This document shows, piece after piece, positions 362 through 50,284 of a stretch of 64,000 bases of DNA (positions are counted from its first letter, which is position 1; the number at the start of each line of letters is the position of its first letter). Below the pieces are notes generated by a model. It was not told the origin of the DNA. It did not search any database and saw nothing but the letters and a program-made list of their open reading frames with translations. The stretch comes from Guyanagaster necrorhizus (lineage: Eukaryota > Basidiomycota > Agaricomycetes > Agaricales > Physalacriaceae). Made by a program: the position numbers and the translations under genes. The DNA lies in assembly GCF_019112545.1 (NCBI RefSeq), contig NW_025064902.1:1-64000 (forward strand), written 5' to 3'.

Positions 362-2145
362 AGAGTATGCTGCAGTCAATTCCAACTGTATGCTATTGTC
401 CTGGAGGTATTCTTTTACCTCTTCATTGATATATTCCTTTCCATTGTCAATCCTCATAAACTTCAGATCCTTCCCTTTGTGGACTTTGATGTATTTTTGA
501 TACTGCTGGATCTTCTTTCAAATTTCCATACCTTGCTTTGACTTCAAAAAATACAACATTGTCCTCTGGGATTTTCCATCTGTGAAGCTTATGTAATATC
601 TTTTACCATGGATACCCTGAGTTCAGGCTGGCCCCCATAGATCTGAAAATATCATTTTCTCTATTTTAGTATAGTCTCTTTCAGCTTCCTGTGGAAATGG
701 CTTGGTATGATGTTTGGCTTTTATGCAAGCTATGCAATCTGTCTGAGGCTCAGCTGACTCATCTATATCCATCCCCTTGACCATTTTCTTCCTAAATAGT
801 CTTTTTACTGATCCCATATTTAAGTGGTCTAATGTTTTGTGCCACTTTTGCCATGATCAGGCTGATTTCATAGCATGGGCCTGGGTTATTTCTGGAACAA
901 TGATGTCAAGGCTGTACAGCTTTGATATTTTATCTCCATGGCTGATTATCTTGCCATGTGGTGAGATAATATCCATTCTGGACTCTTTGAATTTGAGTTC
1001 AAATCCAGCATCTGTAATGTGCCCTATTGACATAAGATTGAATGGTGCATCAGAGCAGTGGATACACTCCTTTAGTGTGACTAGAGTGATCTTTTCTCCT
1101 TCAACCATTTTAATCTTGACAGTTTCTCTTCCCAAGCCTTTAGATTTGCCTACACCAATGACTTTATGTCCTGAGGTTTCAACATAGTCAGAAAAATATA
1201 ATCTATTTTTGACTATATGTCTGGTGGTGCCAGAGTCCCCTAGCCATGATACTCCTGAGAGTGAGGTAAGTGTGACGTCTGTTGCACAAAATACATAGTC
1301 ATCTTCTTCTGAGTCCGATTTGGCAACATGTGCCTGAGTCTGGCCCTTTCCCTTTCCTTTCCATGACTTTCCAGAATTCTTTTTCTCATTTGGGCAATTT
1401 ATTCTGATATGATCGGTTTCCCCACATCTGTAACATATGACTTTTGAATTGGACTTCTTGTCATATGCTGCAAGTGTCATAGTCCGATCAGAAGTCTTTT
1501 CCTTTAGTCGGATATCCTCCTGAAGAATTTGAAAAATCAACTTGTAAGAATCTTTCAAGTCAGCAGTATCCACTGATGAGATGAATGAATTCCATGATTC
1601 TGAGAGTGATATAAGCAGTGTGATAGAGAAGTCCTCCTCGACTTTCTGCTTAAGGGATGCCAGCTCCTCCTGATAGGACCTCAAAGTTCTAATGTGCTTC
1701 TCTATGTTTCCTCCTTCTTCGCACTAAGCTCTGAAGAATTTTCTTCTGACAAGGACAATTCCCATGGATCCCCTAGACTCATACATATCTTCCAGAGCTT
1801 TCCAGGCTTCTGCTGAAGTCTTTGAACCAGCAATATATACCAGCAGGCCATCAGAAATCCACAATCTTATTGTTGAAAGAGCCTTCCTATTGCTCTTCTT
1901 CCAATCTGCCACCAGTGTCATGTCTGCTGGAGCCAGAATGCTTCTATCTGCATAATCAATTAGTCCTAAATCAGTTAGAATATTGATCATCTTGATTTTC
2001 CATGTCAGATAATTTTCCAGGCCCTTAAGAGGGTCAATTCTATACATGGACTGGCTATCCATGTGGTTCTTTGTGTGTATGTAAAGTACAAAAGTGTGCA
2101 AAGTGAGTAGCGATGTAAGTTCAGTTATGGCCAAGGCCCATAACC
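362..2145 (-). pseudogene. Ty1/copia gag-pol remnant (gag, zinc knuckle, protease, start of integrase)
   Basis: On the minus strand the order is gag (about 2,060-1,700; 'LTWKIKMINILTDLGL'), then a CX2CX4HX4C zinc knuckle (CYRCGETDHIRINC, near 1,420). A degenerate aspartic protease follows (LGDSGTTRHIV), then GAG-pre-integrase (HKTLDHLNMGS, near 815) and the beginning of the integrase core (DNGKEYINEEVKEYLQ, near 420). This is the canonical copia order. It is not functional: the gag frame breaks near 1,724, a stop separates protease from pre-integrase near 857, and the integrase ends at 361 where a gypsy LTR intervenes. Reverse transcriptase and RNase H of this copy are missing. A half-tRNA primer site at 2,135-2,145 marks its 5' side. 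Confidence 0.85.
2135..2145 (-). other. Copia primer-binding site, half-tRNA(iMet) type
   Basis: The plus strand reads GGCCCATAACC, i.e. GGTTATGGGCC on the element's strand, directly next to the putative LTR edge (TGTTG at 2,146). This matches the anticodon-stem region of initiator tRNA-Met rather than the tRNA 3' end, the priming mode known for Drosophila copia and yeast Ty5. It is only an 11-nt match, but a related site sits at the same relative place in the second copia element. Confidence 0.6.
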
Positions 2146-2281
2146 TGTTGTAAGTAGAGAGCAGAGTAATGTACAAAGAACTAGAATTAGCCTCTCGAGA
2201 GAGAAACGTTCTACTTAAATATATTTTGTATTACTTTGAGATCTTTCTACAAGATACTAAATAAGTCTGAATCATGATCCA
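2146..2281 (-). repeat. Putative 5' LTR of the minus-strand copia element
   Basis: It begins TGTTG directly after the primer-binding site and consists of non-coding A/T-rich sequence. The right edge is uncertain. Coding sequence of another copia element begins at about 2,285, so the LTR is at most about 136 bp or is truncated. No partner LTR is present in the window to confirm its limits. Confidence 0.4.
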
Positions 2282-7309: not shown

Positions 7310-7370
7310 TTATTGTTGGCGTTTTGGGCCAAGACAATAGGATCCAACCACGCAGTGTCCAGGTATAAAA
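7310..7370 (+). promoter_or_regulatory. Pheromone gene 1 promoter: inverted ACAATA pair and TATA box
   Basis: TTATTGT (7,310-7,316) and GACAATAG (7,333-7,340) form an inverted pair of ACAATA sites about 17 bp apart, followed by TATAAAA at 7,364-7,370, 90 bp before the start codon. The same arrangement precedes the second pheromone gene, although the intervening sequence differs. ACAAT/ACAAWG-type sequences are bound by HMG-box regulators of fungal mating genes (for example Prf1 in Ustilago). Assigning such a factor here is inference. Confidence 0.6.
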
Positions 7371-7459: not shown

Positions 7460-7555
7460 ATGGACAACTTTGCCGAATTGATCTTCGGACTTGCGCCAGT
7501 TCAAAACGAAGCAGCCGAGGGATGGACAATGGACGGCGGATGCGTCGTGTCCTAA
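7460..7555 (+). CDS. Mating pheromone precursor 1 (CaaX lipopeptide)
   Basis: This ORF of 31 codons begins MDNFAELIFG and ends DGGCVVS then TAA. The terminal CVVS is a CaaX box, so the cysteine should be farnesylated, the last three residues removed and the new end carboxymethylated before export by an Ste6-type transporter. The product would be sensed by an STE3-type receptor of a compatible mate. A QNEAAE block 6-11 residues before the cysteine matches QNEATE in the second copy and could contain the N-terminal processing site. It is shorter than most basidiomycete precursors (usually about 40-80 residues). The start is the only ATG in frame, it is preceded by a TATA box at 7,364, and it aligns with the second gene's start (MDNF). 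It was identified from motifs and the paralogue rather than by similarity search. Confidence 0.85.
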   Translation: MDNFAELIFGLAPVQNEAAEGWTMDGGCVVS

Positions 7556-7636
7556 TAGCTTTTCTCCTCTGCTTCTAAGTGAGTACTCGTTTTACTCGTG
7601 CTCAACGGAGCGATGGGCTTACCTAGTCATTGTCAG

Positions 7637-9030
7637 TGCTTAACCATTATTTAAGTTGTGAGAGGAGACTTGGAGATCGGAGCTGTAATAGCTATAGTTC
7701 ACAGACAGTAATCTGGCCGCTCGACGTACCTTTATATTTTTTCTTTTTTGTCTTGGACTCGGATATCGCATACTCCACCGTACAGTCAAACATTTGGACT
7801 GTAGAACACTTTTTAAATAAGAATAAGAATGATATGTACATGTAATGGAGGTATACCAGGTTTGCCGCCTTGGCCCGTACTTTTCCGGCGGTACCAGCAT
7901 GAACCGAACCCTTTACGACGAAGGGAGACCAGGGTGTACGACTAAGAAAGTCATTTAAAACTGACAGATGGAAGAAAAATCATCCTTATGCGGCGAATCG
8001 GCGTGTTTTGTGTTCAATGCGAATCATCTGAAAATATAATATCGACGCTATGTCGTGGCCGTGGATGAAGGTCTTGAAGTAGGAAAGCTTGGATTCATGG
8101 GCTTGCGTCCGGCAAGCCCCAGTGTGCCGTGCTGTGTAATGACAATGATGATGATAAGGATGAGGATCTCGCAGCACCAGAAGACGCAGCAATTGAAAAT
8201 TGGCAGCCGCTAGTAAAGCATGAGTGCGAGTTTCTCGGTACGTAAGCTCTGATCCTCTTTAGTGCCCGTGCCCAGGCACAAGCCGTGATACGACGTGGAG
8301 TGGACATTGCTTAGGAAGCTACAAATTTCTCCTTGGCACTTTGAGCCGTAATAACTTCGAAAAAAGACAGTTACTCAGCGGACGACCGGTGAGCCTTCGA
8401 AGGTAGGTACCTGACTTCATGTTTTTTGGGAAGTGTGAGCTCTCACCTCCCAATTTAAATGAATGCCACATGCGTCTTCGCTACAAGACATCCAGCCCCT
8501 AATTGATCATCGCTTCCACTCCGTACATAGCGTCGCTCCTTGATTTCGTGTCTACGAGCACAAATGTCCGGATACATCTCAAAAGGCGCGTACCATCGCG
8601 CCCGAATCATCCTCACCACTTTAACATAGAACCCTTATTTGAAATGACCTGAGGTGAGATGCTCCAGGTTTGGTGCCAGTAAAGTTCCAGCACATTGCAC
8701 TGTCATTTGAGTCAAACAAGAGACTGACTGTACAATGTTCAATTGTCAGATGTTTGACTGTGGTGGACAGACTGCCCAGAAGTTAGGTAAAGTTTGCTAA
8801 ACACTGAAAGCCAACCAATGAGTATTTACATCTATGCACATTTGAGATATCACTTTCCAAGCATCCATGTGTCAATTGGAAATGCAGAACTGACCTTTTG
8901 TTTTTGTTTTTCAAGTTTGTAGCTTGTAAGCCACATCTATATGTCAATAGCCGCGACCTAAGGCAGCTTCCTTAGGTAATGCATCACAATGCATTTGATC
9001 ACATGCTAATTCTGGCTTCTTCTATCCTTC
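7637..9030. other. Spacer downstream of pheromone gene 1; no gene recognised
   Basis: A possible 3'-UTR intron of the pheromone transcript lies just before (7,579-7,636: GTGAGT..CAG). The rest shows only short unconvincing ORFs. From about 8,640 the sequence becomes CG-poor and continues into the F-box pseudogene. No STE3 receptor helices were seen on either strand. Confidence 0.35.
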
Positions 9031-10240
9031 ATGTCACTTGTGTCCCAAGGTGGTATCCCTGCAGAGATTGTGGATATGATTATCAACAATATTTATCATT
9101 TTTATTAGCCTGATGACAGCAATGATGGTGATCTTGCAGAGCTCAAATATCAATGCCACTCCACTTCAACATCATGTTCTTTGGTTTGTGTGACATAGCT
9201 GCTGTGCAGTCAATACCATCTTTTCTGAATTATGACTGTATCCTTTGCTAATCATGCAACCTTTATGCATCTTATCACCAGTCCACACTGCTCTTTCCTT
9301 TGCTTCATTCATACCTTAATTCTTGAGGATCTTAAAGGACTGAACAATGACAATAGTGACTCTAACATATCCATCTTTATCTGCAATTTAGCGAACCTTT
9401 TGCATCTCAAGACTCCTTTGACTGCCATGCCCTTCATATTTCCCAACATCAAGAGGCTGCATATAACCAAAGCCCCATTCTCTCTCATTTTGGAGGAGAA
9501 CTTTGACACTTTTCTCCTTTTTCTATCCAGTCTCATCAGCATCACACACTTAGCTCTGAAATCATGCATTTTCCATACCCTGGACCATGTAATCTGCATC
9601 CTGTCATCATGCAGAATCTTGGAGTCTGTGCATTTCAAATATAACCTGTGTGTGGAAAGTCTGCCTCCAGAAAAAACAACTCCATCCTATCTCTCTGGAC
9701 TCTCTGCTTCTTTATCATCTTTGCTATTTATTGTTGGCTATAAACATAGCTTCATTCTACAAATCATTTCTATCACTGGTCCATCACTGAAACATTTGAG
9801 TATGTCTTTGACTCCTCTCAATATACTGTCCAATCATATGTGTCATAATGATCTGGATTAAATTGCACTGATATTCATCATTTCCTTTGACTAGGTGCAG
9901 ATGCACTCTCTTGCAATGGAAACCTTGAGTACAACACAAATCTTGAATCTATCATATTCCAATTTGTTCCTATAAACAATGCCTTTAATAACATGAGGAA
10001 CTGCACTCAACACATCCCTGAAATGCTTCAAAAAATCATGTCTTCCTCCATCAATGAAATAATCTTGACAGTCTGGATGCCATTCATGGTTGACTTCGAT
10101 GACCTTGATTGAAAGTCCATCACTAAAGTTCTGAGTCAGGAGAACTACAGGAATCTCAGGAAGTTCTTGGTTCTACATGTGAGAGCATATATGGAGGATG
10201 AGTCAAAGGAACAGATTGCTCAAAAGTTGAAGATGCTGAC
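9031..10240 (+). pseudogene. F-box/LRR-type protein, 5' portion, interrupted by copia insertion
   Basis: It starts with an ATG at 9,031, followed by a basidiomycete F-box-like helix (IPAEIVDMIINNIY) and the CSLVC...SQYHLF pattern that typically ends the F-box in this family. A leucine-rich body follows (ORF 9,232-9,861: IFPNIKRLHITKAPF, ITHLALKSC, SLKHLSMSL), then further frame to 10,240. The intact family would act as a substrate receptor of an SCF ubiquitin ligase. In-frame stops (TAG near 9,106, TAG near 9,211, TGA near 10,109) are what C-to-T changes of CAG, CGA or TGG would give, and the region is CG-poor. A copia element is inserted at 10,240/15,171, and the reading frame resumes on the other side. 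Confidence 0.75.
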
Positions 10241-10429
10241 TATTGACAGAAGAATATATGTGAGTATCTCAGTCGGGCACAACATGGGTGAAGCAACTGA
10301 GACATACAGATAGGAACAGCTGGACTATATAGGTGATCAGGAAATGACAGGAGATGTAAGTATATATAAGGCAAATAGAGTGAGTGATCAAAAGTAAGAT
10401 AAGATGAAACGTATGGATATCCTCCAACA
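10241..10429 (-). repeat. Copia 3' LTR
   Basis: On the element's strand it begins TGTTGGAGGATATCC and ends ...CTGTCAATA. The limits are fixed by the target duplication outside and the purine tract inside. It is 189 bp, nearly identical to the copy at 14,982-15,170. Confidence 0.92.
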
Positions 10430-10444
10430 CTCTCCCATATCTGT

Positions 10445-13400
10445 TCAATCTACTGGGATAACGTTGAGCATCTTGAGGTAACCATTGTGCATATCATGAG
10501 GCAAGGGCTTGGTGAACATATCTGCAGGGTTTGTGTTCCCTCGAACAAACTCGACACGTAATTCACCATCCTTCATGAGCTCCCTAATGAAATACTTTCG
10601 AATACAGATATGCTTGACTTTCTGATGGGACTGTGTATTTGTCGTTAATGCTACAGCACCCTGGTTGTCACCATACAATACACCAGGGTGAGGCTGAAGT
10701 AGTTGGACCTCAGCCATCCAAGACAATATCCACATCATCTGTTGTGCTGCACGAGTAAAGGAAATGTATTCAGCCTTGACAGTGGACAGGACGACGGTAG
10801 CCTAATGCTTTGAGCTCCAGCAAATTGGACCACCCGCCATGGTGAAGACATAGCTGGACGTCAAATGAGTCATATCCCTACAACCTCCATAGTCTGCATC
10901 TACAAATCCAACAGGTGTTAACGGCTGCTCACACAAAAAGGAGATACCAAGGTCTATTGTCTCCTTTATGTACCCAAGGACATGTATTAATGCTTTTCAG
11001 TGCTCTATTCCTGGGTTAGACTGGAAGCAAGTGAGCAGGCTCACAGGAAAGCATAAGTTGGGACGAGTTGCAAGCTGTCCCCACATAACATGGCCTAGCA
11101 GTCATCAGTATGAGAATCTTTTCATAGCGTCCTTCTCTGCTTGGGTATTCGGAGACTGTGATATGTCGAGTACGATTCCAACAGGTAGGGGGGTGGTCCG
11201 TGATCATACATATCCAAGGTTGAAGTCTAAAAATACATTCTCCTAATATAGATACTGCAAGAAGGTGATGGTGCCAGCCTCAAGATCTTGTTCAATCTTT
11301 ATCCCCAGAAAGTAACAGTTCTCCCCCATATTGGTGAGCTCCTATTTCTCCTCTAATTTCTTCTTTCATCGGCTCGCCTCCTCTGTAGTCGACAATGCTT
11401 CTCACACATCATCAGTGTAAGTATCTGTGATGGTATACTCATCTCTAGACTTGCCAATGGTGTGTACACATGGGTCTGCCTTTGATACATGGTATCCAAA
11501 GTCTTCATAGGTTTTTCCAAGCATCTCAAACCAATCATGGCCACCCTGTATAGTCCCATAAATAGTATAGACAAGTTTGCACACCTTATCCTCTTGTCCT
11601 TCGACTACGTACCCTGAGGGCTGACACATATAGATGTCTTCTTTTGTCTCACTATTCAAGTATGTTGAAATGAAGTCCACTTGCTATAGGACAAGATCGA
11701 GCTTTGCTGCAACAGCAGCTGACATCCATACAGATTCAAGATGGATCACCACAGCCCAAGTGTCGTTATAGTCAAGTCTATACTGTTGAGTATAGCCCTT
11801 CCCAACAAGCCTCACCTTGTCTCTGATCCAGTTACCATCGCTATCCTATTTCATACTATAGACTCATTTACAATCCATCACGTTTACACCTACTGATCTG
11901 TCGACTAGGTCTCATGTATGCTTTGTCATATGCATTTGGTATTCCACATCCATAGCTGCCTTCCATCGCTCTTCATCAACACGCAGTGCATCTTGATGAT
12001 TTTATGGGATGTATAGGTTAGGTGGATTACCAGAAGCCATTGAAGCATATGGCTGTTTGCTGTTGGTTGTCCAGTTATTTCTGCTTGCATGGGCCTCAGC
12101 TTCTCGTTGCTTTGACATCAGAGATTCGGCAGCATCAGCACTGGGACACATTAAGTGTGTTGATCAGCAAAGAGTTGGTTCTGTGGGAGCATCTGGCATT
12201 TGCTCAGTTGACTCAGTTGGCTCAGTTAGCATAGGCATCTCGATATGAGTAGAAGTGGTGAGTGCAGGTTCATCCTCCATCTCTCCTACACTCACACTTT
12301 GGTGTGCTGGTCCTTCATCAAAGATGACATCACGAGACATGAACACATGTCCTGATTGATCAAGTACATGGTAATTGGACCCTGAGTATCCCAGAAAGGT
12401 GCATTTCTTTAATCGATCATCGAGTTTGCTTCTGTCATCTACCAAAACCCCACCAGCTATAGGTTTCTTTGCCCAGCAAGTGGATCTGAACACTTGTAAA
12501 AATCCCATATTCTGTCGTCGCTTCGAGAAACCCTCTGCTAGTACCACTCCAGGATGGCGACTCAAAAGAACAAGGTTTCGCGTGAAGATTAACATAGAGG
12601 CAGCCTCAGCCCAGTAGTGGTCAGCGAGGTCAGAGTCACTTAGTAGAGCTCTTGTATCCTCCATAGTGGTGCATAGGGCATGTTCAGCTAATCTATTCTG
12701 GGCTGATGAGTGGAGTGCAGTTAATTCCAGGATGATCCCATGCTTCTTGCAATATTGTTTCCACTTTACTCCTGCAAAAGCATGATCAGCACATATACAC
12801 TTAAGCTTTCGGCCAGTCTGGGTCTCAGCCATATGCCTATATCTGTCAAAAGCAGCCATGGTAGTGTCATCTGCTTTGTCTGCCAGGAATTCCTCCACCT
12901 TGAACAATGTACCACTATTGACGAATATCATCATATAAGTCTTTCCACTCAGTGATGTCATTCGAGACGGTTCCCACATATCTGTTGCAACAAGCTCCAG
13001 TGGGTCGACATTGGGATTGGTGGGCTCATCGAAGGGATGACAAGCATGTCTTGCTAGAATACAGTCCTCACAGCATTCTTGGATAGACTCTGAGGTAATT
13101 TCCAAGCCATCCACCAGCCTTTTTGATGTCATCTCCTTGATTTTTGCAGGGCTCATATGGACAAAACGATGGTGCCAAGTACTCAGCAAAGTGGGAGATG
13201 AGCGGGATGCCATAGCTTGGAGGCTAGGTGCAACATTCAGCACATACATGCCATCTGAGTCTCACCCAGCAAAGATCTCTTTACCAGACTTATTCTAGAC
13301 AATTGCACAGCCATCAGAGAATACAGTTGACAACCCAGCCTTGTCTAAAGTGCTTATGGAGATGAGATTTGTGGTGAGTGAAGGTGAATGCAAGGCATTT

Positions 13401-14680
13401 TTGAAGGTGAGCTTAATATCTCTTCTATTCAGTCTGAAGACCTTTGTTGCTGTACTCTGGCCTAGGATCTCGAATGTTCCCTTTCCCTCAACTGCAGATG
13501 AGCCAGTATGGAAAGCTACTGGCGTGTACTCTGTGAAGTCATTATGATTCCTGAAGAAGTAATCACTCGTGCCAGAATCTATGAAGGTTAGAGTGATGGC
13601 TGGGGTACGGCCTTTGAACGTAGTCATGACAAAGGCTGTTGTAGCAGGGTCAGCCTCATATGTAAAGTGTCCTACATTCTCAATGTTAGCCTTGCTAGTG
13701 TCTATACTCTTGACAGAAGATATCTCATCATCTCCAGCAACATCTTCATCATCAGAGTCATCAATGTCAGTGAGAGAAGGCATTTCGAGGTCTGTCTCTT
13801 CTTCAACCTTTGACATCAATATAGTGCTGCTCTCTGTTTCATCCCAGTGCCAGAAGGAATGGGTACCATTCCACTTGTATATCCTTTCGCCAGTGCTGCC
13901 ATCCTCAATTACAATGCTGTCATCATCATGATCAGCTTCCACTGTAGTAGCATGCACAGCAAGTACAAAATACCTTGTAGTATCGGCCATGGTGTTTGAG
14001 ATTGCCTGGTTTGCACAGCGAGATCAGCCGAAGTTGGCAGGGAATTGTCTCTCCTTTCTCCCTCCTGGCCAATAACAATTCTTGGTGGTGTGCCTAATCT
14101 TATCACAGGCCTTGCAATCTGGATTGTGACATCCACGTACCACGACAGAGGTTCCGACTCCAGCTGTAAGTGCTTGGGAGTTGGCAGGACCTTTATCCAC
14201 TGTATGAAGCATGGCGGCATGGGTTTGGAGATGGGAAAACACATCAGAGGACATTGGCATGTCATATAAACTTGGGAGGATAGGCATCCAGTGATCAGTC
14301 AGGATTATCAAGTGAATAATTATTCTCTTGAACTCCTGATCACTCAATGCTGTGGTTTGAAGGTCATTCACAGCTCGTCATTTCATGCGCAGGTTGGCGA
14401 TGTGGATATTGATATCACTGTTTCCATCAAACTTCACCACATTCAGCAATGCCTCAGCCTCAGAAAGAGCCATATCCATTTTCTTTGCATGTTCCACAGC
14501 AACAGAGTCCCAGCATTCCTTTGCCATTTCATCAGTCTTGACCCCTAGACTAATGGAGTCGAGAATGTTGAGAACAATGTTCGAGTGGGTGAGCTGATCA
14601 TAAAAGACCCACTTGTCATACGAGGAAGAGGATGAGTATATGGGAGTAGAGTCTGGTGGGAGGGGTGTGGTAGTAGCCAT
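10445..14680 (-). pseudogene. Copia gag-pol, inactivated
   Basis: Gag starts with an ATG at 14,680 (KWVFYDQLTHSNIV). A CX2CX4HX4C knuckle (CKACDKIRHTTKNC) lies near 14,090, and the protease has FIDSGTSDYFF near 13,570. Integrase (HHRFVHMSPAKI, CEDCILARH, then the rve core with DMWEPSRMTSL and CICADHAFAG) spans 13,249-12,300. RT includes VDFISTYLNSE and QPSGYV and ends TDTYTDDV (11,680-11,402). RNase H spans 10,738-10,445 (VLYGDNQGAVAL, HICIRKYFIREL, ADMFTKPLPHD). Defects include minus-strand stops at 13,295-13,297 (TAG), 13,262-13,264 (TGA) and 11,684-11,686 (TAG where QQVDF is expected). A frame change separates gag ORFs near 14,000-14,370. Most stops fit CAG-to-TAG or CGA-to-TGA transitions. 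Confidence 0.9.
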
Positions 14681-14968
14681 GGCTGTGGTAGTGGTGGTGG
14701 GGATGGCAGGACAGACAGTAGTTCCTGCAATGTATCCCCATAGGCCTTTTCTCTTCAGTAACTCAGTAAGTTGGAGTTTTCATGAGGCATAGTTCTTCCT
14801 GTTGAAATGGCTACTCATGTCAGGGAGGATAGTGACTCCCGACATCAACAATATCGTTTAGGGGTGTGGTGTAAAGTGGTGAGAGTAGTGGTATGGTATA
14901 AATTCAAGCAGTAAGTTGAGTCGAAATTCCATTGCATATTCTTCTTGACTGAGTAGTTATAGGCAACA

Positions 14969-14981
14969 GGGCCTCATAACC
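14969..14981 (-). other. Copia primer-binding site, half-tRNA(iMet) type
   Basis: The plus strand carries GGGCCTCATAACC immediately left of the 5' LTR. This is the anticodon-stem/loop sequence of eukaryotic initiator tRNA-Met (contains CTCATAA), so the minus-strand site GGTTATGAGGCCC would pair with an internally cleaved initiator tRNA. The adjacency to the LTR edge set independently by the target duplication makes the call firm. Confidence 0.8.
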
Positions 14982-15170
14982 TATTGACAGAAGAATATAT
15001 GTGAGTATCTCAGTCAGGCACAACATGAGTGAAGCAACTGAGGCATACAGATAGGAACGGCTGGACTATATAGGTGATTGGGAAATGACAGGAGGTGTAA
15101 GTATATATAAGGCAAATAGAGTGAGTGATCAAAAGTAAGATAAGATGAAACGTATGGATATCCTCCAACA
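14982..15170 (-). repeat. Copia 5' LTR
   Basis: This 189-bp partner of 10,241-10,429 is bounded by the primer-binding site on the left and the CTGAC target duplication on the right. Confidence 0.92.
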
Positions 15171-15254
15171 CTGACAGACAAGAATCCATCAATCAAGATT
15201 GTGGTCCGCAATGAGAGACATGGTCGGTTTGTGAAGGGGTGCTTTGGATGGTGA
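15171..15254 (+). pseudogene. F-box/LRR-type protein, 3' end beyond the copia insertion
   Basis: Removing the copia element and one copy of CTGAC joins the plus-strand frame ...AQKLKMLT to DKNPSIKIVVRNERHGRF, ending at a TGA at 15,252-15,254. The frame is maintained exactly across the junction, which confirms that the insertion interrupted a coding exon. About 27 codons remain on this side. Confidence 0.75.
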
Positions 15255-17270
15255 TTCAACTGTTGGGTACTCACTAACGAGGTGGTGTTATATCTGTTCT
15301 ATTATCATGCAGGCTCTAAATTTTCTCCATTACACAGTGGGATGTCTTCACAAGCATCAGGCCTCCTGAAGTTTCCACCGGTGCAAATCCTACTACTCCA
15401 ATGGCTTTATGTTGTATAAAAGTATATTTCATGAAAAGACATTTATAGTATAATGGCTTTCTTGGTATGAGTTTGTATAATACAAATAGCTCCGAACATT
15501 CCTTGTCGGGGTACATAGGACTATGGTGTAATTATTATGAAAAGGGAATGGATTTTGTTGTATCATGCAACTACCTAATGATAGATGCCTATTTCAACAG
15601 GCCTCTTCAGCTGCTTTAGTTGCAATTATTCATAATGTATGGTGGGTCTGAAGGGATGTTGAAGGGGGTCGCAATGTAGAAAGAAAAGTGAGCTACGGAA
15701 GGCGCAGAGCAATCCGTTACACAGCCACCACAAATTCTTATCCGCGTCCATGTCGTTCCGCCGTTCCACCTTCTTGACATTATGAAGCCACGTACAACTC
15801 AATAATTCGCCGATTTGTCTAGATTCTGCAAAGGTGTAGGAATAGGTGAGTTTCTTCTACTACCACTGCAAAACTTCGAGCTTCAGCTGACAGCAAGGAG
15901 ATTCTTCCTAGCATGAAGATTGCCCTATATACAAAGATTTACGCTTCGAAGAACGTGTAAGAAGGCCTTATCTTCTAAAGCGAGGGACATTTGCGTAGTA
16001 CCTCTCAGAATTTACTGGACTCTGAGATGGTAATTGCCTATGTAAATGGTAAGCGTTGCCACTGCATATATTCGACACCCTTCATTGGTACTGCCTCTGA
16101 GCTCACTACGATGTCCAGATGCAGCTCTGGTACAGTTGCATGTTACCATGAAGAACTTTGCAACTGTAAAGATCAATTGTGCTGTCCAAGCTCCCGACTG
16201 AGATTGTCATTTATTTCGAAGGGTTCCTTAGGTGAGTTTTCCGGTTATTTCCTGCTCTTTTATACGCCTGACAAGTTAAATCATTTTGTCGCTGTTTGTC
16301 CCTATCTGGTGCTCCTAGGACCAATTCTCGCATTGCATTACTGTCTAACTTCCTGATTTCATGAAGTTTGGCGCAAGACTCGACGTGTTCGTGTTCTCTG
16401 TACCAAGCACGACCGTAGGTATGATACCAGCCACGGATCGACACGCACAAGGATACCACGCCTTTGAGCAGGAACCATCACCACGGCTTCTTGTTTCACT
16501 ATACGGCACTCCTCATGCCCGTCTCGTGTCGTCCCTGTCTATTCTCAACACCTCCCTCTGTGGTCTCGGTGTTTGAGCCTCATGAGAGGAACCGGTCCTC
16601 TTTAAAAATAGATACTCTGCTCACCCACAGCGACACGGGTGCTACATATCCTACCGAGTCGCACGTCGATGCCAATGGCCAGCCGGAACATCGTTCCTGA
16701 CCCGGCGTCGGTACGGTCGTTGCTGTGGTGGTATCTTCCCTCCATATGATGTTCAAACCACGTTCCAGACTCTCATTACAGCATATCTTACATGCACTCC
16801 TTCCCTTACACCTGTTTCTGCCCTTCATAAAATCAAGGCCTGACGCAGTCAATTGTTTGGGCTTCATCGGTATGCTTTTGGCATCGAATTAGAACTGCGT
16901 CTACCTTTTGTGTCCTTCTGTCGGCGTGGAGTACTAGCACTGCAATGCACCGTATAGCCCTTGCTGTTGGAGAAACTATAGAGGACGGACATGATCCGGA
17001 ACTAGTCCCGTTAGTGGTCAGTTTTTTTTTTGCCGGTGCTTAGCCGTGAGGCCGCCAGTGTGCGGACAGCCTCTCAGAACAATAACATTATCTTGTATGT
17101 AGGGCGCTCGCGGCAAATGATATTGTTTGATGCTACCGGGGCGGCCCTGATGAGACGAGAAGATGCCGTCGCGAAGCACGCACACATCAGCCGAATTGAC
17201 TTTTGCAAAGCGCAATGATTCGTCACCCGACCAGTGGCAACCGTCTCCGAAGCGACAGCCCTCAAAGCGT
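15255..17270. other. Spacer upstream of pheromone gene 2; no gene confidently recognised
   Basis: There are several ORFs of 60-121 aa (for example 15,991-16,356 plus, with a hydrophobic end), but no conserved motif. I specifically looked for STE3-type receptor helices and could not support one. If a diverged receptor remnant exists in the window, this 2-kb interval is the likeliest place. Confidence 0.3.
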
Positions 17271-17279
17271 TAAGGTATC

Positions 17280-17359
17280 TTATTGTCTACGCCAGGAAAA
17301 GTGCCGTTGCGCTTTGGGACGAGACAATAAGACCGGCCGCGCAAGGGCCACGTATAAAA
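17280..17359 (+). promoter_or_regulatory. Pheromone gene 2 promoter: inverted ACAATA pair and TATA box
   Basis: TTATTGT (17,280-17,286) and GACAATAA (17,323-17,330) repeat the inverted arrangement upstream of pheromone gene 1, with a wider gap (36 versus 16 bp). TATAAAA follows at 17,353-17,359, 102 bp before the ATG. A shared CTTCACC and an ACATCCTCAT motif also precede both start codons, indicating a duplicated promoter. Confidence 0.6.
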
Positions 17360-17461
17360 GGCTGCCATGAATCCTTCTCTGTCTTCACCTATTTACTACC
17401 TAGATCACACAGCTGCACTGGTCTGCGCTCATAATCTTCTACGAACATCCTCATAATATTT

Positions 17462-17578
17462 ATGGATAACTTCATCGAGTTCATCCTTGGCACGGTCGGG
17501 CTCAGTGTCCCGGATAACACTTCGCAGAATGAAGCGACTGAATTGTGTTCCACGGACGGGGGATGCGTTGTGTCATGA
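17462..17578 (+). CDS. Mating pheromone precursor 2 (CaaX lipopeptide)
   Basis: This 38-codon ORF begins MDNFIEFILG and ends STDGGCVVS then TGA. Its CVVS CaaX box predicts farnesylation and trimming as for precursor 1. The final 16 residues align without gaps with precursor 1 (QNEATELCSTDGGCVVS versus QNEAAEGWTMDGGCVVS), differing at five or six positions just before DGG. That is the part likely to set receptor specificity. Unlike copy 1 it has an additional cysteine seven residues before the CaaX cysteine. It has the same strand, start motif and promoter layout as the gene at 7,460, so the pair is a duplication separated by about 10 kb of F-box and copia sequence. Confidence 0.87.
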   Translation: MDNFIEFILGTVGLSVPDNTSQNEATELCSTDGGCVVS

Positions 17579-17643
17579 AAGGGGACGCTCTGTGTATAAA
17601 TTCGTGAGCCCTTCGTTCTTTTTCTGAATGACGTTGCTCACAG

Positions 17644-18597
17644 ATGACCGTCAGTAGTTGGGACCGGAGTTTCCAGACGTTTAATGGCTCTGATTGGTAG
17701 CAGGACTCCAAAGGAAACGTGGCTCATGGACGGTGTCTGAACATACAATCGCTTATTGTTTCTTTTTTTTTCATTGATGGACATTAAGACTGCCGCATCA
17801 TACCACCGCCGATGTAATGACATTCATGGACAGGATATACTTATTTTGATTGAAAGTTCACATGCCAGAAGCACCCGAATGTCTGAGAAGTGGGCGTGCC
17901 TTCAACGGAGAAAGCATGGGGAAAAAGTTAGTCAATAATAACAATAGACAATGGGAACGTTCTCGTCGGCAGGCTGCGAGGATAACTTACACCCGGGTCC
18001 TTGAAGCTGCTTCGGGGAGTTTTGGCGCTAAGGAGGAATTAATCGGTGAATTGAACGATGACTGGGAAATTATTTATTGTACATATTCGTTGAAATAGAT
18101 TTCTGATCTGCAGCAGGACGGACCGTAGTTTCTTCATTGGACTGCGTGGTGGGTTTCTTGAATGTTATCTGCCCATTGCATATCGTGTTGTCATTGAACC
18201 CCGCACTAATGACGCTGCGCTGCCGCGTAGCAGGGACACCTGTATGTATTTGAGGCGCGTGAGAACCTGGCGGTGATATCTGAATTGGGACGGATCGCGC
18301 GTTCAATCAGCTTTGGACTTAACTTCAACAAAGTAGCTGATTCTTTTGAACTTAGAGCTTAGACGTACAAGATCTCGAGAGGGCTCAAGAATTCCTTACA
18401 AGGGTATCCTATTAAAAAAGCGGCTGGTCAGGCAACGCCTCAATGCTTCTTAAGATAAAGTGCCCTATCACTGTCTTCCTTCAAGAAATGTACATCATCG
18501 ACGAAATATTTACACAAAGCATTATATACAAAAGACAGAGCAAACTTAATATAATGTCTACATATTATCCAATCCAGAATGAAATGAAGCACTAGTA
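17644..18597. other. Spacer between pheromone gene 2 and MSH2; no gene recognised
   Basis: Two short ORFs (17,850-18,098 plus, 82 aa; 18,070-18,306 minus, 78 aa) show no recognisable features or splice-supported extension. The right part forms the 3' flank of MSH2. Confidence 0.35.
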
Positions 18598-36690: not shown

Positions 36691-39465
36691 ATGCCTATCA
36701 AGCACTTTGACGGTGGGTCTTGTTGGGGAAATTGTGCGTCGTGTGAACTGATATTTTTTCTCCTGAAGCATACCTACCCGAGCGAAAACAATTGACAACA
36801 CTCCAGCTTTCAGCCCTTTCCGATTCGCGTCTAGGCATTGATGCGTCCTACTATCTTCAGCAGCTCACCGACAACCCACCGTCGAGGGAGCCTCTCCTCG
36901 CAGCGACGGGTGGCTTACCTTTAGCGCTCACGCAGCGCATCGAGTCGGACCTTCGTATCCTCGAAAAATGGCATATCAAGCCCGTTTTCGTGTTTCCAGG
37001 ACTTGTTCCCAACAGAAAATGGAAGCCTCAGCAACTTCTAGAGAACACTGAAGCCTGCAAGGACCGACGCGATGCATGGGAAAAATACGAGGCAGGTCTT
37101 GAAGACCAGGCGACCAAGTTGTTCGCTGGGCGGAGTAGTTTTCAACAGTGGGATCTGTGGAGAATGGTGCTGAGAATTTTCAGACATCGGAACGTCGAGT
37201 TCATCATTGCACCGTATCTAGCATGGCCGCAGGTATGAGTTTATCTATAGCTTCTGTGTTATGGTCCAGCCAATTACTAACCGCGTCAACAATTTCCTCT
37301 AGTTAATTTATCTCCAGCGCCATCCAAAATCCTACATTCACGCGATATATGGTCCCACCGACACGCTTCTGTATCCAGGGGTGGACAAGGTTATCACATC
37401 CTTGGACTTGCTCTCGCCCACGCCCACGTTCATGTATGTTTCTAAACGTGCAATCATGGTCGATCTCGGTGTAACCGAAGAACAATTTCTCGATATCGGC
37501 ATTCTCGTTGGTTTTGATCATTCCGCTCCGTTCCCACCTACCATTCACGAGCAGGGACTGAAAGCTACCGTCGACATGATCAAGTATTACAAGACCGGAC
37601 ATGCTGCCGTACTTGCCTTCGTGGAGCATCCTGTTGTCAAACCTATCCAATATCCCGAACATTATGCCCGCACACGCTCCATGATCAAATTTTCCTTGAT
37701 CCTGTCTTCTGAAGGAACTGTCCAACCGCTTCCCCTCGCTATCACCACCCCTCCCAACCACGGTCATCCCAATCAACCTCACCACCCCACGGCTGCGGAT
37801 ATCCCACAGGATCTTCATGAAATATTCACAAATCGGCTCCCAGACGAAATCTATTTTTACCTCTCCCGTGGACTTCTTGGGCCCCAGGCGCTTGTCTGGC
37901 TTACAAGCGGACAAATCATTGAAAGCCCGCCCCTAGATAACGGCGAAACGACGGAATACAAACGATTTGTCAAGGAGGTTATCACCGACGGACAGACCGG
38001 TCCCCGTGCTACTGCCTTGGCACTGATCAGCAGTGTAGCCCATTCCTTCTGGTCCAACCGAAAAGTACACGGTTACTTCTGGTTCGAACAGCCTGGACCA
38101 AACCACACCCAAAAGCCCGTGTTGCACAATTCTCAACAGACGGCCCAGCTGGCGGACCGCGTCTCCGGTTGGAACGTCCCGTATGCCATCGTGGAAGAAG
38201 AGCTGAGACGACAGAATGTAAGGTTTTTCATTTTTTTGGTTCTAGGGAAAGTGCGACCATTCTTGGCTAAAGCGCGTTGTTTCTGTTTTTCTCCCTTCGT
38301 GTTCTTTAGTCCTCCACGATTGATTTCGCGTTATGTCTGGGTGCAACGGCTATGGAACGCTTCGCCCTGCGTACCAAGGCCAAGACGAATCCTTCCAGCG
38401 GTCCCCTTGAGAAAAAAGATGAAGTTGTCGCCAACGTAATCTGGCGATTCCTGGAGTTGCGAGGGTAAGAATAGTTTTGTTTTTTTATCTGATGTCTTCA
38501 TTTCTCACTGATTGTCCAAAACATAATGCAGGTTCTTAATGAATTCTCACACACATTCCCCATTGGCTCGTGCCATGTACACCGCCATCAAACAAGCCAA
38601 ACTGAATGACAAATTTCAGGACCCGCTGTACTTGTTTTTGGAGTTAGTACGGGCGGGTGTAATGCACGGTCATTTATGGTCCAACCGAGCATTCAGCGGC
38701 GGACCAAGTTTCGGCACGGGTTCGTTTATTCTTATCAAGGCTATGTGGTTACTTTCCTGACCCGTGTGCGTGCGCCACCAGATGACGAGAAAACGTGTAT
38801 GTTGCTGGTGATGCGGGTCCTGAGCATTGTTCCCTTGAACTTTAAGGTGAGGCGTCAACGTGACTTATCCGCCGTCGGTTTGATACATGTTTTAACGCGA
38901 TGGTTTCGTCTAGCCCCAGCCCTGGTCTGCCCCTCTATCACGAGAGCTGCTTGTATTCAATTCGTTTGTGCGGTCTCTCACGCGAGCCCTACGGACCCTC
39001 CTTGAGGTGGCATCGCTGAATATGCTTCTCCGTGCGGATGCTCGACGCGCCCGGGACGACCTGTTGGACATAACACTATCTCTGCCGTTCCAGACGGAGG
39101 TGAATACCGGATTTGGAGTACTTGCCAAGGTATACCTGGATGCATTGACACATATCAACAATGGCACCAGAGTTCGTGATCCACAAGCTGAGGGCGTCAA
39201 AGAGGCAAAGATGTTGGCACTTGAAATCTGCGAGGAAACGTTCCCGGGCGTCAAATGTCCCAAGCTGGAAGTTGAGCGCGGGTTCCGGTTCTGGGATGTG
39301 GTGGGTCATTTCTGGACCATGATTAGAGTTGCGATCGCTGATGAATCTATGGGGGGACAGGCGCTGACAGCGATGCGGCAATTGCATTCGGAAGGCGCAG
39401 TACTAAGGGAGCTGATTGACCAATTTGAAGCAGCCGAGGCATGGCTGGCGCCGATGCGACCATGA
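36691..39465 (+). CDS. MKT1: Mkt1-like post-transcriptional regulator (XPG-type domain)
   Basis: It starts at ATG 36,691 (MPIKHFDAYLPERKQL across the first intron) with the XPG N-terminal-like fold: LGIDASYYLQQL, IKPVFVFPGL, FIIAPYLAWPQ/LIYLQ, then IYGPTDTLLYPGVDKVITSL in the XPG-I-like position. The catalytic acidic cluster is degenerate, as in the Mkt1 family, which lacks nuclease activity. The C-terminal Mkt1 domains follow: LPDEIYFYLSRGLLGPQAL, GPRATALALISSVAHSFWSN, VVANVIWRFLELRG/FLMNSHTHSPLARAM, LVRAGVMHGHLWS, ending WLAPMRP at 39,465. Yeast Mkt1 binds Pbp1 and modulates mRNA translation, including HO. I count about six introns; the one with a weak donor at about 38,719 (GTTCGT) is needed to join GTDDEKTC. 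The length of roughly 760 aa is normal. Confidence 0.9.
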
Positions 39466-43708: not shown

Positions 43709-45714
43709 TCACCAGAAGCGTGTATTTTGAGGATCTACGTTGTTTGCCATACGAAGTGTCACCACGTTGGATGTTAGACTCGAGAACTGATGGGCCAAGT
43801 CAGCGCCACACGCACGTACAAGTCAAGAAGAAAATTTCGAAACGTACCCCATTACCAACAAAGACTTCTGCCCGCTGTCCAATATACATGTCAAGCGACT
43901 GAGCGACGTACTTTTGCTCCCGGGTGTACGTCAGATCCCTGCTCGTCGCGATGCCCTCCCACTCGCCTATCTGTCCTAATGCCGTCTTCAACGCCCTCAG
44001 CCAGCCGCGCTCCCCATTCGACATGATGTATACTCGATTGAGAGGTTTCCCTCGTCGCTCCTGCCTCACTTTCTCGACGATCTGTTCAATGTTGGGATAG
44101 CAGTGGTCTAGGTACCTGGATATCTTCTCCTCTTCCGGAGCATCGTATGGGGGCACAAACTTGTCCGGAAGCTCGGGGAATGAGTTGAGGCCATTGTAGT
44201 GTGTATTCCAGCCAGCCAGGTTCGTACAGTGTTCCCTGAAGTCGCCGCGGCGGATGTGGAGAGCGATGAGACCCGGTAAAGGTGGGTAAGGCGGGGTCTG
44301 TTCGATGGCAGGCGGTGTTGGAGACAAGAAGGATGGAATGTTGAAACCGAGCAGGGATGTTGAAGTCTTGTCCTCGAAGAGCTCGCGATTGGCATCGTAT
44401 GCGGACAAGATGAGTGGAGACCACCCAAAGTCTGTAATAATCGGGGTGTCCTTTATGTGTGGAAATATAGAGAGCAAAAGGGTGTCTGAGAACAGCCTGT
44501 GTAAAGGAAGTCAGAACCGAAAGAAACATTAAAGAGAAATCATCGCTCCTAGCAGACGACTAACTCGCACCGGTAAAAATGCAAGGGAAACAATCAGAAT
44601 GCAAATGATACCTTGACCCAGGCTTTTGACCACAGCAAGTTGTGTCGGCTTTTATCATTAAGGGAAACCCGGTTCAATTTACTGTGGTCGGAAGCCTCGA
44701 TCTTCCCAGGCTTTTTATCCGACCCGAAACAGTCGCCTACTAGAAGGCATGGTACATACCAGACATCGAAAACATGGGGCGTGTCTTTCTCAAACTCGAC
44801 GCATCGGTCCGGTATAGCGTCAATCTCCTTTATCCATGTCTGCAGGATCTCTGAGGCCTCTACGTTCCCCAGCCTGTCCTTGACTGCGTTTGTCGTTAGA
44901 ACGAGAGGTTCGGGACACTGCTGTCGAAAGAATTCTAGTGATACCGCGCGCGGCACATCGCTGCGGGGGCCAAATGGAGCGCCTATTATGGGACCTTTGG
45001 GGGTGGGCCGGTGAGCGGGCGGGGTGTAAACTTTGAAAAGGGGCCATTACCTGATATTAAAGCAGACAGCGGTATTCGAGACGGAATGATATTTCCATTA
45101 AAGTCTGAGTAGTCGGAAAGCTCTCTCGACCAGGTGTAATTGTCGAACACAAAGCTGTATAATCTTTGAGAAGTCGGTAGAAGTTTGATTACACTGTCAC
45201 GCACGCTCTTTTCGTCGAGTATGCGAGAAGCGCGTTCATTAGCAGCTCCTGCATTATATTTCCCCATCCCGACGCTGTTTGGAGTGAGGAACGACACCAG
45301 AAAAAAAAAAGAATTCAAACACGCACCATACGCGTGGTTTCCAAAGAACAGATATTTGGCATGCTTCCCCTCTGGCGCCGGCAATGATGCATCATGCTGC
45401 GGTAACCGTCTTTCGTATTCGTGATATTGTTCGTATAGAGGGGGTAGATCCGACTCGAATGGGAGTGGTAAGGGGAAATAAGAGTTAGGAGGCTCTGGTC
45501 CCTCCCCTCGGAAGAGAAAGAGAAGTACTGAAACCGAAACGATGCCTGCTATGAGCACACGAACATATCGTTTCGTTAGAAGATTGTGAGAGCGATTTCG
45601 CCAGGAATCCGTTGCTGAGGGTGTTTTTGTTGGTAAAAGGGAAGAATCAGAGGTCCACATAAGCTGTTGGTGGTGGTGGAGGACGGAGAGCAAGTATGAT
45701 TTTGTCTGGTTCAT
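43709..45714 (-). CDS. O-fucosyltransferase-like type II membrane protein
   Basis: It starts at ATG 45,714 with a cytosolic N-terminus, then a single membrane anchor (VRVLIAGIVSVSVLLFLF, about residues 51-68) and a lumenal region. Exons give KYLFFGNHAYG, GMGKYNAGAANERASRIL, LSALISGPIIGAPFGPRSDV, ECVEFEKDTPHVFDVW-like sequence, then a large exon. That exon has PIITDFGWSPLIL, GLIALHIRRGDF (HxRRGD, the GDP-fucose-binding arginine motif of O-fucosyl and alpha-1,6-fucosyltransferases), IYIMSNGE-like and VAQSLDMYIGQRAEVFVGN. The final exon, after the intron from the GTACGT donor, ends FSSLTSNVV...NTRFW at 43,709. It is predicted to act in the Golgi or ER. The donor sugar is not provable from sequence; basidiomycete members are uncharacterised. 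The alternative first ATG (MWTS, 54 bp in) cannot be excluded. Confidence 0.8.
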
Positions 45715-47368: not shown

Positions 47369-50284
47369 ATGCATTCCGGTAAGTCACGCTGTCTGGCAAG
47401 ACATTGGCGATCCTCTAACCCGTTCCGTGTAAGCAGACCAGCCGTCGAGTGTGGCCTTTCCCTTGTCTGAGTCGCCAGTCAAGGCCCAGCCGCAGCCACG
47501 CCCTACACATCTACCCTTTCGCCGGATATCGCTACCAACTGCACCAACGTTAGGCTATAGGGAATCCGTAGTCAGTGTAGCGTCGTTCGACTCGCTACCA
47601 GAAGACGGGTCATTACCGATACCTGCTATGATGCGCAACGTCAATTCTGGAAAGAGGCCCAATGGCCGGCCAACATCTACTGACGGACTGAGGAAGAGAA
47701 ACAGGAGGAGCCTTCGACCTGTCCATGACGTATTGGAGCCGAAAAGGCGGAAGGTCATCCAGGAGTTTTACGAGACAGAACGCGCCTACGTTGATGGTCT
47801 CGAGCTGATTTATTCCGTGCGTGCCAAAATGTTTCTCGTTATTACCTTTCCTGACAGATCTTTAGCATTTCCTCACTCCCATCATTGCATCTCTCGAGAC
47901 TTCTCAGCCACTGCTCGACCGGTCCGGACTGACTTCTGTGTTCTCAAATTTCATTGACATTTGGAATTTTCATCGGTCTTTCTTCTCTGCGCTAACGTCC
48001 CATATTTTCCCGAGCTCGGGTTCCGCTTCCACCTCTTCTCTCCCCCTCTCCACTAACCAGCCACTTTCCCCAATCCTACTCTCTCACTTTCCATACCTGT
48101 CCCTATATACACCATTCGTTACCGCCTTTCCGACCACCATCTCTTCTATCACCAATCTCATCACCCCGCCTTCTGCAAACAGCTCTAATCCTCAGTATAG
48201 TGCTTCTTTTGCAATCTTTCTGGCTACCCAAGAGTCAGATCCTCGTTGTGGTAGGCTAAAGCTAAGAGATTGGCTCTTGACCATAGTCCAACGTTGCCCG
48301 CGATATCTTCTCCTTTTAAAGGACTTGATTGAACGCACAACACCAGATGATCCAGAGCACGCGCAATTAATGGCGGTTCATACCCTTGTTTCAAAAAGTA
48401 TGTCATTTCGCACTGTTTTTAACGTCCTTTGCTTATGTCCGACTGTCCTAGTTACCCAGTCCCTAAACTCCTCTCTCCACACCCATGCGCAAACCCTTTC
48501 CCTTCTTGCTTTACAAAAAACCACACCAAATCTTCCATTTCAGCTCATAAGTCCCGGCCGCACACTCCTGAAACGCGGAAGTCTCCTCCAGATCGAACGG
48601 AGCGAGCACCCACGTGAACGTGAATTCCTCTTGTTTTCTGATTGTCTCATATGGCTCGCAAGTGAAGACTCGGAACGTGGATGGATGAAGACTGACTGGT
48701 CCATTCCCGGATGGGCGCCACAGGAGCCCATGGCTCCGTCAAGGCCGCTTATGAAACGGACAAGGAGCAAGAGTGAGGCGGAGCTGCCTGGTCTGCTTCG
48801 TTCCCGTATAAGCGGGTTCCCGATGAAGAGCCGTAGCATGATTCCGCCACCGACGAGAAAGTCACAGCTGTCTGGAGGCGGCGTCCGGCGGCAAGCGAGT
48901 GGCGGTGATGAGCGGTGGGTGTACAAGGCTCGGGCGGGGTTGGTAGACCTCGAAGTGGTGGTTACGTCGCCTCGGGAGGCTGGGGAGGAGAGGAGGTTTG
49001 AGGTTCTGAGCCCCGAGGGAAGTTTCGTGCTGTATGCGGACACGGAGGATGAGCGAAATGAGTGGTGTTCAACGATAAGACAGGCCAAGGCGCAACTTTT
49101 AATGTCATTGAATATCACGAATCCGAATTCGACGCTTACGGCTTCGTCATCAACGAACCACATACGGCTGTCGCTGCAGGCACTACCGTTTGCGCCTTCG
49201 GATCATTCTTCAAAGTCTCCAGGTAAAGGGAAGAAGAAGAATGTAAAGGAACGAAGGGGATGGGTGGAGCATTGGGTTCCGGCTATTTGGATACCAGACG
49301 AGAAAGCAGAGGGATGTATGAGATGTGGCAGGTCCTTTGGATGGAGGCGACGAAGACACCATTGCAGAATATGCGGGCGATGCGTTTGTGCTACGTGTTC
49401 AGATAGAGTAAGTGTTTATCCGAGCCCACTTTCCATTTGTTCACATTTTCATACCTTAACAGACATTCTTCATAACGGATCCTAATTCCAAAGAAGACAC
49501 AAGCAAGCCTGCTCGAGCCTGCAACGCATGTTATGAAACCGTGTTCCCGCTTCTCGATCGGCCTGACGAAGAGGAAAACAGCCACGTACCGTCAGAAAGT
49601 AGTAACAACACGATAACCTCCTTAACCAACTTCCCGTCTTGGCTCTCAATGCCATCGCTTCCTTTAAGCTCGACACCCGACGCGCTGATGGCCATCTACA
49701 GGGACACGCCCAAACAGGACTACACGACCACCATCGTCGACGATGACGAGCTCTCTTGCGACTGCCTCCGCGTCAAGTCCTCCCCTTCGCGGCCGCGGAG
49801 CTACCACCAAATCCTAGAGGATCTCCAGGGCCACGATCATTCACGGTTCGATTTGACATCTCCCGTAGAGGAGGAAGGTACTATAGAGGAGGATTCCCTC
49901 GACACGGCATCTTTTACGTCGAGCAAGAGGCATACGGTGAATTTGACGGAGGAGCCTGTGCTGAGAAGGGAGGATACGGCAAGGAGGAATAAAAGGTTTT
50001 CATTACCTGCTGTGGCGTTGCAGACGACGAGTGTCACTACAAGGACAATGATTGGAGGCGGGGGCGGGGCGGTCGAGGGGAGTAAGTTGACGCATGTGCA
50101 GACGTCAACGAAGACACAAAGGTTCTCGTTGGTGCTTGGTGGGAAAGGGAGTCGGCTTTCGAACGGACAACGTAGTGAGTTTGTGGGCAAGTCGAGAGTG
50201 CAGGTGCAGGGTGATGAGAGGCTGGCAAAGGGTGTAGCTGCTGGGAAGTTGAGCGAACTCTTGGGGAAGAACATCTATGCGTAG
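47369..50284 (+). CDS. RhoGEF-PH-FYVE protein (FGD-like)
   Basis: It has a mini first exon, ATG CAT TCC G (47,369-47,378), an intron to 47,436, then an N-terminal disordered region. The DH domain follows: VIQEFYETERAYVDGLELIYS, then after an intron HFLTPIIASLETSQPLLDRS, TSVFSNFIDIW, and CR3 VQRCPRYLLLLKDLIERT. The PH domain runs GRTLLKRGSLLQIE ... EFLLFSDCLIWL ... FVLYADTEDERNEWCSTI. The FYVE finger is CMRCGRSFGWRRRRHHCRIC, GRCVCATCSDR/TFFITD, CNACYETV, with the RRHHCR PI3P-binding motif. A serine-rich tail ends at 50,284. This is an exchange factor for Rho-type GTPases (Cdc42 for mammalian FGD proteins) recruited to PI3P endosomes or membranes. The three-domain order supports the call strongly; the exact GTPase is inference. 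It is divergent from the small gene at 46,817-47,299. Confidence 0.9.

Follow-up and report, generated by a model that had tools for sequence, protein, structure and literature searches.

Do two very short open reading frames (ORFs) near the end of a contig of the basidiomycete Guyanagaster necrorhizus encode pheromones, and do they mark a mating-type locus? The stretch analysed, here called the window, comprises the first 64,000 nucleotides (nt) of contig NW_025064902.1 (C23:1-64000) and begins at the contig end; C23 measures 851 kb, in a genome of 53.3 Mb in 109 contigs. We consider it likely that the two ORFs, C23a and C23b, are real genes, coding for very short farnesylated pheromone precursors of the a-factor-like type known from Agaricomycetes, and that they are orphan, probably non-mating-type genes rather than part of a B locus. 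Their positions are as follows:

7460..7555, + strand: C23a, putative pheromone precursor gene, 31 amino acids (aa), MDNF..QNEA..DGGCVVS, full sequence MDNFAELIFGLAPVQNEAAEGWTMDGGCVVS
17462..17578, + strand: C23b, putative pheromone precursor gene, 38 aa, MDNF..QNEA..DGGCVVS, full sequence MDNFIEFILGTVGLSVPDNTSQNEATELCSTDGGCVVS

Two short ORFs under codon constraint

The ORFs are as the initial annotation had described them, with 31 and 38 codons on the same strand, an MDNF start and a DGGCVVS end before the stop, and in both of them the CaaX box CVVS stands directly before the stop codon. The N-terminal MD-x-F motif is also seen in the sister genes described below, there as MDSF or MDCF; its published form is MDS/AF (excerpts of PMC8305134). 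A whole-genome search for DGGCVV followed by one codon (WSN) and a stop found two places only, C23a and C23b (0 and 0 in the reversed control). ORFs of 20-60 aa running from MDxF to a CaaX end numbered two in 94 kb of C23 (the window plus 30 kb), and none occurred in 200 first-order shuffles of that stretch. With a looser CaaX scan, each of the stretches read yields several more short ORFs; we attribute these to chance.

The paralogy of the pair is borne out by the way in which the two genes differ. In a hand alignment around one 7-codon gap, the 31 codon pairs carry 35 nucleotide differences in 93 positions; 21 of the 35 fall in third codon positions (p = 0.001), and within the MDNF, QNEA and DGGCVVS codons the differences are synonymous only. 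Nineteen of the 31 residues are identical, compared with 10.4 on average if the 35 changes are placed randomly (19 or more in none of 20,000 trials). This codon constraint, together with the shuffle controls and a plan in common with genes of the STE3 receptor cluster (see below), supports the earlier claim that C23a and C23b are paralogous CaaX pheromone-type genes. Their predicted mature cores would be 11 residues long, AAEGWTMDGGC for C23a and ATELCSTDGGC for C23b.

Sister genes elsewhere in the genome

Three further genes have the MDxF start, the NEA motif and the GCV[VI][SA] end in common with the pair:

C32:182799-182930, + strand: C32_182799, 43 aa, ..VNEASGSSGTSGCVVA
C32:217625-217756, + strand: C32_217625, 43 aa, ..RNEASSTASTSGCVIS
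C33, ORF in L043 from base 636: C33 sister gene, 43 aa, MDSFEW..VNEASHSSGTSGCVVA

As judged from their sequences, C23a and C23b form one paralogous class with the two genes of the C32 STE3 cluster and the C33 gene. NEA is located 10-11 residues before the cysteine in these genes (counted from its A, 11 residues in C23a and C23b, and 10 in each of the three sisters). The sisters also resemble the pair in having the promoter box, the TATA box and the predicted intron in the 3' untranslated region (3'UTR), whereas they differ in their length of 43 aa, in their 10-residue cores, which end in TSGC and not DGGC, and, for the two on C32, in their location inside the STE3 cluster. The predicted core of the C33 gene, ASHSSGTSGC, is one residue apart from that of C32_182799, ASGSSGTSGC. 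The contig of the C33 gene has no STE3 match.

The GGCV-type tail pattern alone gave 31 matches in the genome, versus 39 in the reversed control. Four are known genes, 7 were set aside with TGG and not a stop as the last codon, and 20 were read (181-195 nt each, 801 nt for C33). Among these 20, the C33 match is the full sister gene and 18 are not pheromone-like on reading. A last one (C5:899904-900084, - strand, L063), ending in DEASSACRMNGGCVVS before the stop, was left uncounted, having neither an MDxF start nor the searched promoter words in 801 nt; this frame is possibly a pheromone relic or a product of chance. The search for further members by DNA similarity found a decayed copy, C23c, for C23a and none for C23b, and a protein similarity search with C23b returned only C23b itself.

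A promoter box common to the class

Upstream and downstream of the two ORFs the following elements were located, the introns being rule-based predictions:

7310..7316, + strand: TTATTGT element upstream of C23a, forming an inverted ATTGT/ACAAT pair with the box
7324..7340, + strand: promoter box of C23a, TTGGGCCAAGACAATAG
7364..7369, + strand: TATA box of C23a
7579..7636, + strand: predicted 3'UTR intron of C23a, 58 nt, donor GTGAGT 26 nt past the first stop base
17280..17286, + strand: TTATTGT element upstream of C23b
17314..17330, + strand: promoter box of C23b, TTGGGACGAGACAATAA
17353..17358, + strand: TATA box of C23b
17604..17654, + strand: predicted 3'UTR intron of C23b, with donor GTGAGC and an uncertain acceptor, 51 nt being the minimum among five candidate lengths

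The promoters of C23a and C23b are alignable (BLAST, 76% identity over 55 nt), in agreement with the similarity noted in the initial annotation. A box of the form TTGGGN4-6(G/C)ACAATA(A/G), starting at -136 to -183, is present in 5 of 5 intact class genes, all of which also have at least one TTATTGT upstream of the box, as well as a TATA box between -96 and -117. None of these three elements was found within 400 nt upstream of the three pheromone genes examined from the other class (C32_156784, C32_172087 and C69; 0 of 3). The box appeared in 3 of 20,000 shuffled upstreams and occurs 4 times in 264 kb of C32, C12, C21, C7 and C23, each time at a class gene. Its commonest form, TTGGGN4GACAATAR, has 7 places in the genome (1 in the reversed control), including those at C23a, C23b, C23c and C32_182799. 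Past the first stop base, donor-like GTGAG[TC]/GTAAGT sites lie at 26, 28, 43, 46 and 44 nt in C23a, C23b, C32_182799, C32_217625 and the C33 gene, respectively (raw positions). A surface-level search of the open-licence literature found no report of a promoter box of this kind.

The receptors lie on another contig

The initial annotation had taken the ORFs to suggest a B (pheromone/receptor, P/R) region, or else non-mating-type-specific pheromones or pheromones whose receptor lies elsewhere or was lost. At E 0.001 the STE3 model has 17 places in the genome, on C32 (158-197 kb), C12, C7 and C21, and none anywhere on C23. When 120 STE3 proteins were mapped, C32 showed two matches of nearly full length (C32:172.8-174.3 kb and C32:195.4-196.8 kb) as well as partial ones at C32:175.2-176.0 and 158.4 kb; C12 and C7 have divergent matches, and C21 has a fragment. 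One of the STE3 proteins of C32 shares 74% identity with a receptor of Armillaria borealis, and 84% with another database protein. The same contig has pheromone-type ORFs at 156784 (-), 172087 (-), 182799 (+) and 217625 (+); a count of ORFs of 20-60 aa from MDxF to CaaX gave 4 in a 100-kb stretch of C32 spanning the receptors, and none in the stretches read of C12 (30 kb), C21 (20 kb) and C7 (20 kb).

It is therefore C32, and not C23, that carries the STE3/pheromone cluster. A mating-type B locus in the window was rejected for lack of a STE3 match on C23, and pheromones that are non-mating-type-specific or without a receptor become the best reading, there being no receptor nearby: C23a and C23b are CaaX precursor genes away from the P/R receptors. 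Linkage of the pair to homeodomain (A-type) genes was likewise rejected, as a homeobox scan at E 0.01 has its 6 matches elsewhere, two on C25 and four on C2.

One might still suppose that C23a and C23b are mating-type determinants, forming an outlying P/R sublocus that is physically linked to C32, though assembled on a separate contig, and that has lost its own receptor or shares one. Because the window stands at the start of its contig, linkage to the C32 receptors is possible over some 165 kb or more; the class and the box are common to the pair and the C32 genes, and the P/R subloci of Flammulina velutipes are 177-181 kb apart (excerpts of PMC3140503 and PMC5100862). However, none of the 851 kb of C23 has a STE3 match, and in the published P/R subunits described in the excerpts of PMC5100862 the receptor is found together with its pheromones. 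We regard such a sublocus as improbable, and keep to the interpretation of the pair as orphan genes.

Two side observations concern pheromone-type sequences on other contigs. On C21 (821964-823908, + strand), a STE3 fragment with stops stands beside a relic pheromone-like ORF (IDEF..CIVA), and, from its resemblance to the pair at C32:156.8-158.7 kb, this appears to be a decayed receptor/pheromone unit. On C69 (80277-80444, + strand, L032), a contig without a STE3 match, there is an intact-looking 56-aa ORF of the other class (MDTF..CIVA), above the cut-off of the Pfam model PF08015.

A decayed copy of C23a and points against genuine genes

The copy C23c (C23:152719-153080, - strand, L040) is 95% identical to the 371 nt around C23a and lies within a 2,073-nt match of 94.5% identity to the C23a region. 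It keeps the promoter box, the TATA box and the donor; in its ORF 5 codons are changed relative to C23a, 4 of the 5 nonsynonymously, including the CaaX cysteine, which has become an arginine. Such a copy invites the explanation that C23a and C23b too are relics, duplicated out of the P/R cluster and no longer expressed or received, at a stage before visible decay. The loss of the cysteine in a sequence on the same contig that is 94-95% identical to C23a would fit this, as would the receptor fragment and pheromone-like relic found together on C21 and the transposon-rich surroundings of the pair. It is difficult to reconcile with the fact that 35 of 93 positions differ and yet MDNF, QNEA, DGGCVVS and the box are kept, largely by synonymous changes in the motifs. 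We think it quite improbable that the pair are relics, and return to genuine, orphan precursor genes.

Several observations weigh against this interpretation. As the near-identical C23c is already broken, C23a and C23b could follow the same path. A Pfam search of the C23a and C23b proteins gave no family, and the genome scan with PF08015, which passed the cut-off at C69 and at C32_172087 (the latter with in-frame neighbours), misses C23a, C23b, the C33 gene and 3 of the 4 C32 pheromone-type ORFs; this model serves for detection and does not define pheromone precursors. The pheromone genes of F. velutipes score only E 0.0013-0.45 with it (excerpts of PMC3140503). With a 43-aa sister pheromone protein as query, no protein match was obtained in the database at E 10. 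In 5 of 5 class genes a donor-like site follows the stop by 26-46 nt, but this is a raw count without a chance baseline, and 3 of the 7 genome places of the commonest box form (C2, C5:1636406 and C28), for which the reversed control gave 1, have no MDxF..CaaX ORF within 3 kb. Finally, published precursors have a charged pair (ER, DR, EH, NH, EE or DE) about 10-15 residues before the C-terminus (excerpts of PMC8305134). NE is at the expected distance and is kept in 5 of 5 genes of the class, but it is absent from that list, and a cleavage site there would be atypical in comparison with the usual charged pairs (ER/EH and the like).

That C23a and C23b are not pheromone genes at all, but ORFs formed by chance or small prenylated peptides of an unrelated kind, is nevertheless very hard to believe, for although GGCV-type tails alone are common, as the reversed control shows, and neither ORF has a Pfam match, no complete MDxF..CaaX ORF arose in the 200 shuffles, and the plan and the box recur at the pheromone genes of the STE3 cluster.

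Proposed processing and regulation

According to the processing scheme of PMC8305134 and PMC5100862 (excerpts), the CVVS end would be farnesylated at its cysteine, lose VVS and be methylated at that cysteine; cleavage at NE|A would take off the N-terminal part and leave an 11-residue lipopeptide, which would be exported and would activate a STE3-type receptor. As the pair is unlinked to a receptor, it most likely does not set mating type, and its products would be orphan ligands. The STE3-like genes on C12 and C7, around which stretches of 30 and 20 kb hold no MDxF..CaaX ORF, are candidate receptors and may perhaps respond to these ligands.

The inverted ATTGT/ACAAT pair made by the box and TTATTGT resembles what we take to be the sites of HMG-box proteins, and by this resemblance C23a, C23b and the class genes of C32 would be under common regulation. 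One might speculate, tentatively and with rather low confidence, on a dispersed pheromone regulon, in which one box with TTATTGT drives the class genes of the P/R cluster as well as those at loci without a receptor. Under a single HMG-type regulator, each nucleus would then co-secrete mating-type lipopeptides together with non-mating-type ones, and the orphan lipopeptides, as ligands of the C12 and C7 receptors, would provide a second pheromone channel that is blind to mating type. Should the box prove to be a genuine control element, class genes in related species could be listed directly with its help, and ligand/receptor pairs tested. The genome holds pheromone genes without a nearby receptor as well as STE3-like genes without a nearby pheromone ORF, and the ligands of the non-mating STE3-like receptors of mushrooms are an open question (excerpts of PMC8161036).

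Comparison with known pheromone systems

Scattered pheromone-like genes away from receptors have been published for Agaricus bisporus, in a paper that also mentions non-mating-type pheromone-like peptides of Coprinopsis cinerea and Laccaria bicolor, so the kind of gene described here is already known (excerpts of PMC8305134). According to the same source, at least 3 of the 4 A. bisporus genes are expressed, with an intron in the 3'UTR. They resemble the pair as short CaaX precursors, scattered from receptors, with G-rich predicted cores of 11-13 aa; they differ in precursor length (44-54 aa versus 31 and 38 aa here), in cores that resemble GGGSGNGAYC and not AAEGWTMDGGC, and in having the usual charged pairs where NE is found here. 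The excerpts of that source contain no comparison of promoters. Likewise, FvPp1-FvPp6 of F. velutipes are CaaX lipopeptide precursors, and the predicted cores of FvPP3 and FvPP6 end in GGAC; FvPp1-3, however, have lengths of 54, 54 and 46 aa and carry an ER site, and they are near receptors (excerpts of PMC3140503 and PMC5100862).

Further pheromones away from receptors were expected in F. velutipes (excerpts of PMC3140503). The 2011 screen of that species, as excerpted, was confined to receptor contigs and to ORFs of 40-100 aa, and genes like the pair would therefore be missed. The lengths of 31 and 38 aa are outside the 40-100 aa given in PMC5100862, which is a usual range and not a definition. 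With the box, NEA, the CaaX end and the predicted 3'UTR intron as sequence marks, precursors as short as 31-38 aa can be recognised, whereas the published screens cover 40-100 aa (excerpts of PMC3140503 and PMC5100862). What looks new here are the short precursors, the putative NE site and the box in common with the receptor cluster.

The block between the two genes and other genes of the window

Two features occupy much of the interval between C23a and C23b:

9031..10239, + strand: coding remnant with stops and frame breaks, host of the copia insertion, F-box look by eye only
10240..15172, - strand: copia-type long terminal repeat (LTR) element, LTRs 10240-10431 and 14981-15172 (192 nt each), minus-strand copia-type domains

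A copia/F-box block had been proposed to separate the pair. The copia element is confirmed by its LTRs, which differ at 7 of 192 nt, its domains and the 5-nt direct duplication CTGAC that flanks it. The F-box label is not: the resemblance, at 9031-9108, was judged by eye only, the Pfam scan having covered the 210-aa ORF at 9229-9858 and not that segment, and this ORF has no Pfam match at E 0.01. The block had also been thought to add about 10 kb to a tandem pair; the gap is indeed about 9.9 kb, but the copia element alone makes up about 4.9 kb of it, and without it the genes would stand about 5 kb apart. It is plausible that C23a and C23b were once a close tandem pair.

Near the contig end, at 857-2227 (- strand), lies a second copia-type gag/pol piece (Retrotran_gag_2, zinc knuckle, Pol_BBD). 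Host genes of the window include a MKT1-like gene (37303-39465, + strand), an O-fucosyltransferase-like gene (43800-44510, - strand) and a RhoGEF/FYVE gene (47433-50284, + strand). The RhoGEF/FYVE protein is 88% identical to a protein of Armillaria gallica, and a metagenome protein matches it at 96% over 65% of the query; by protein matches, the nearest named relatives of the genome are Armillaria.

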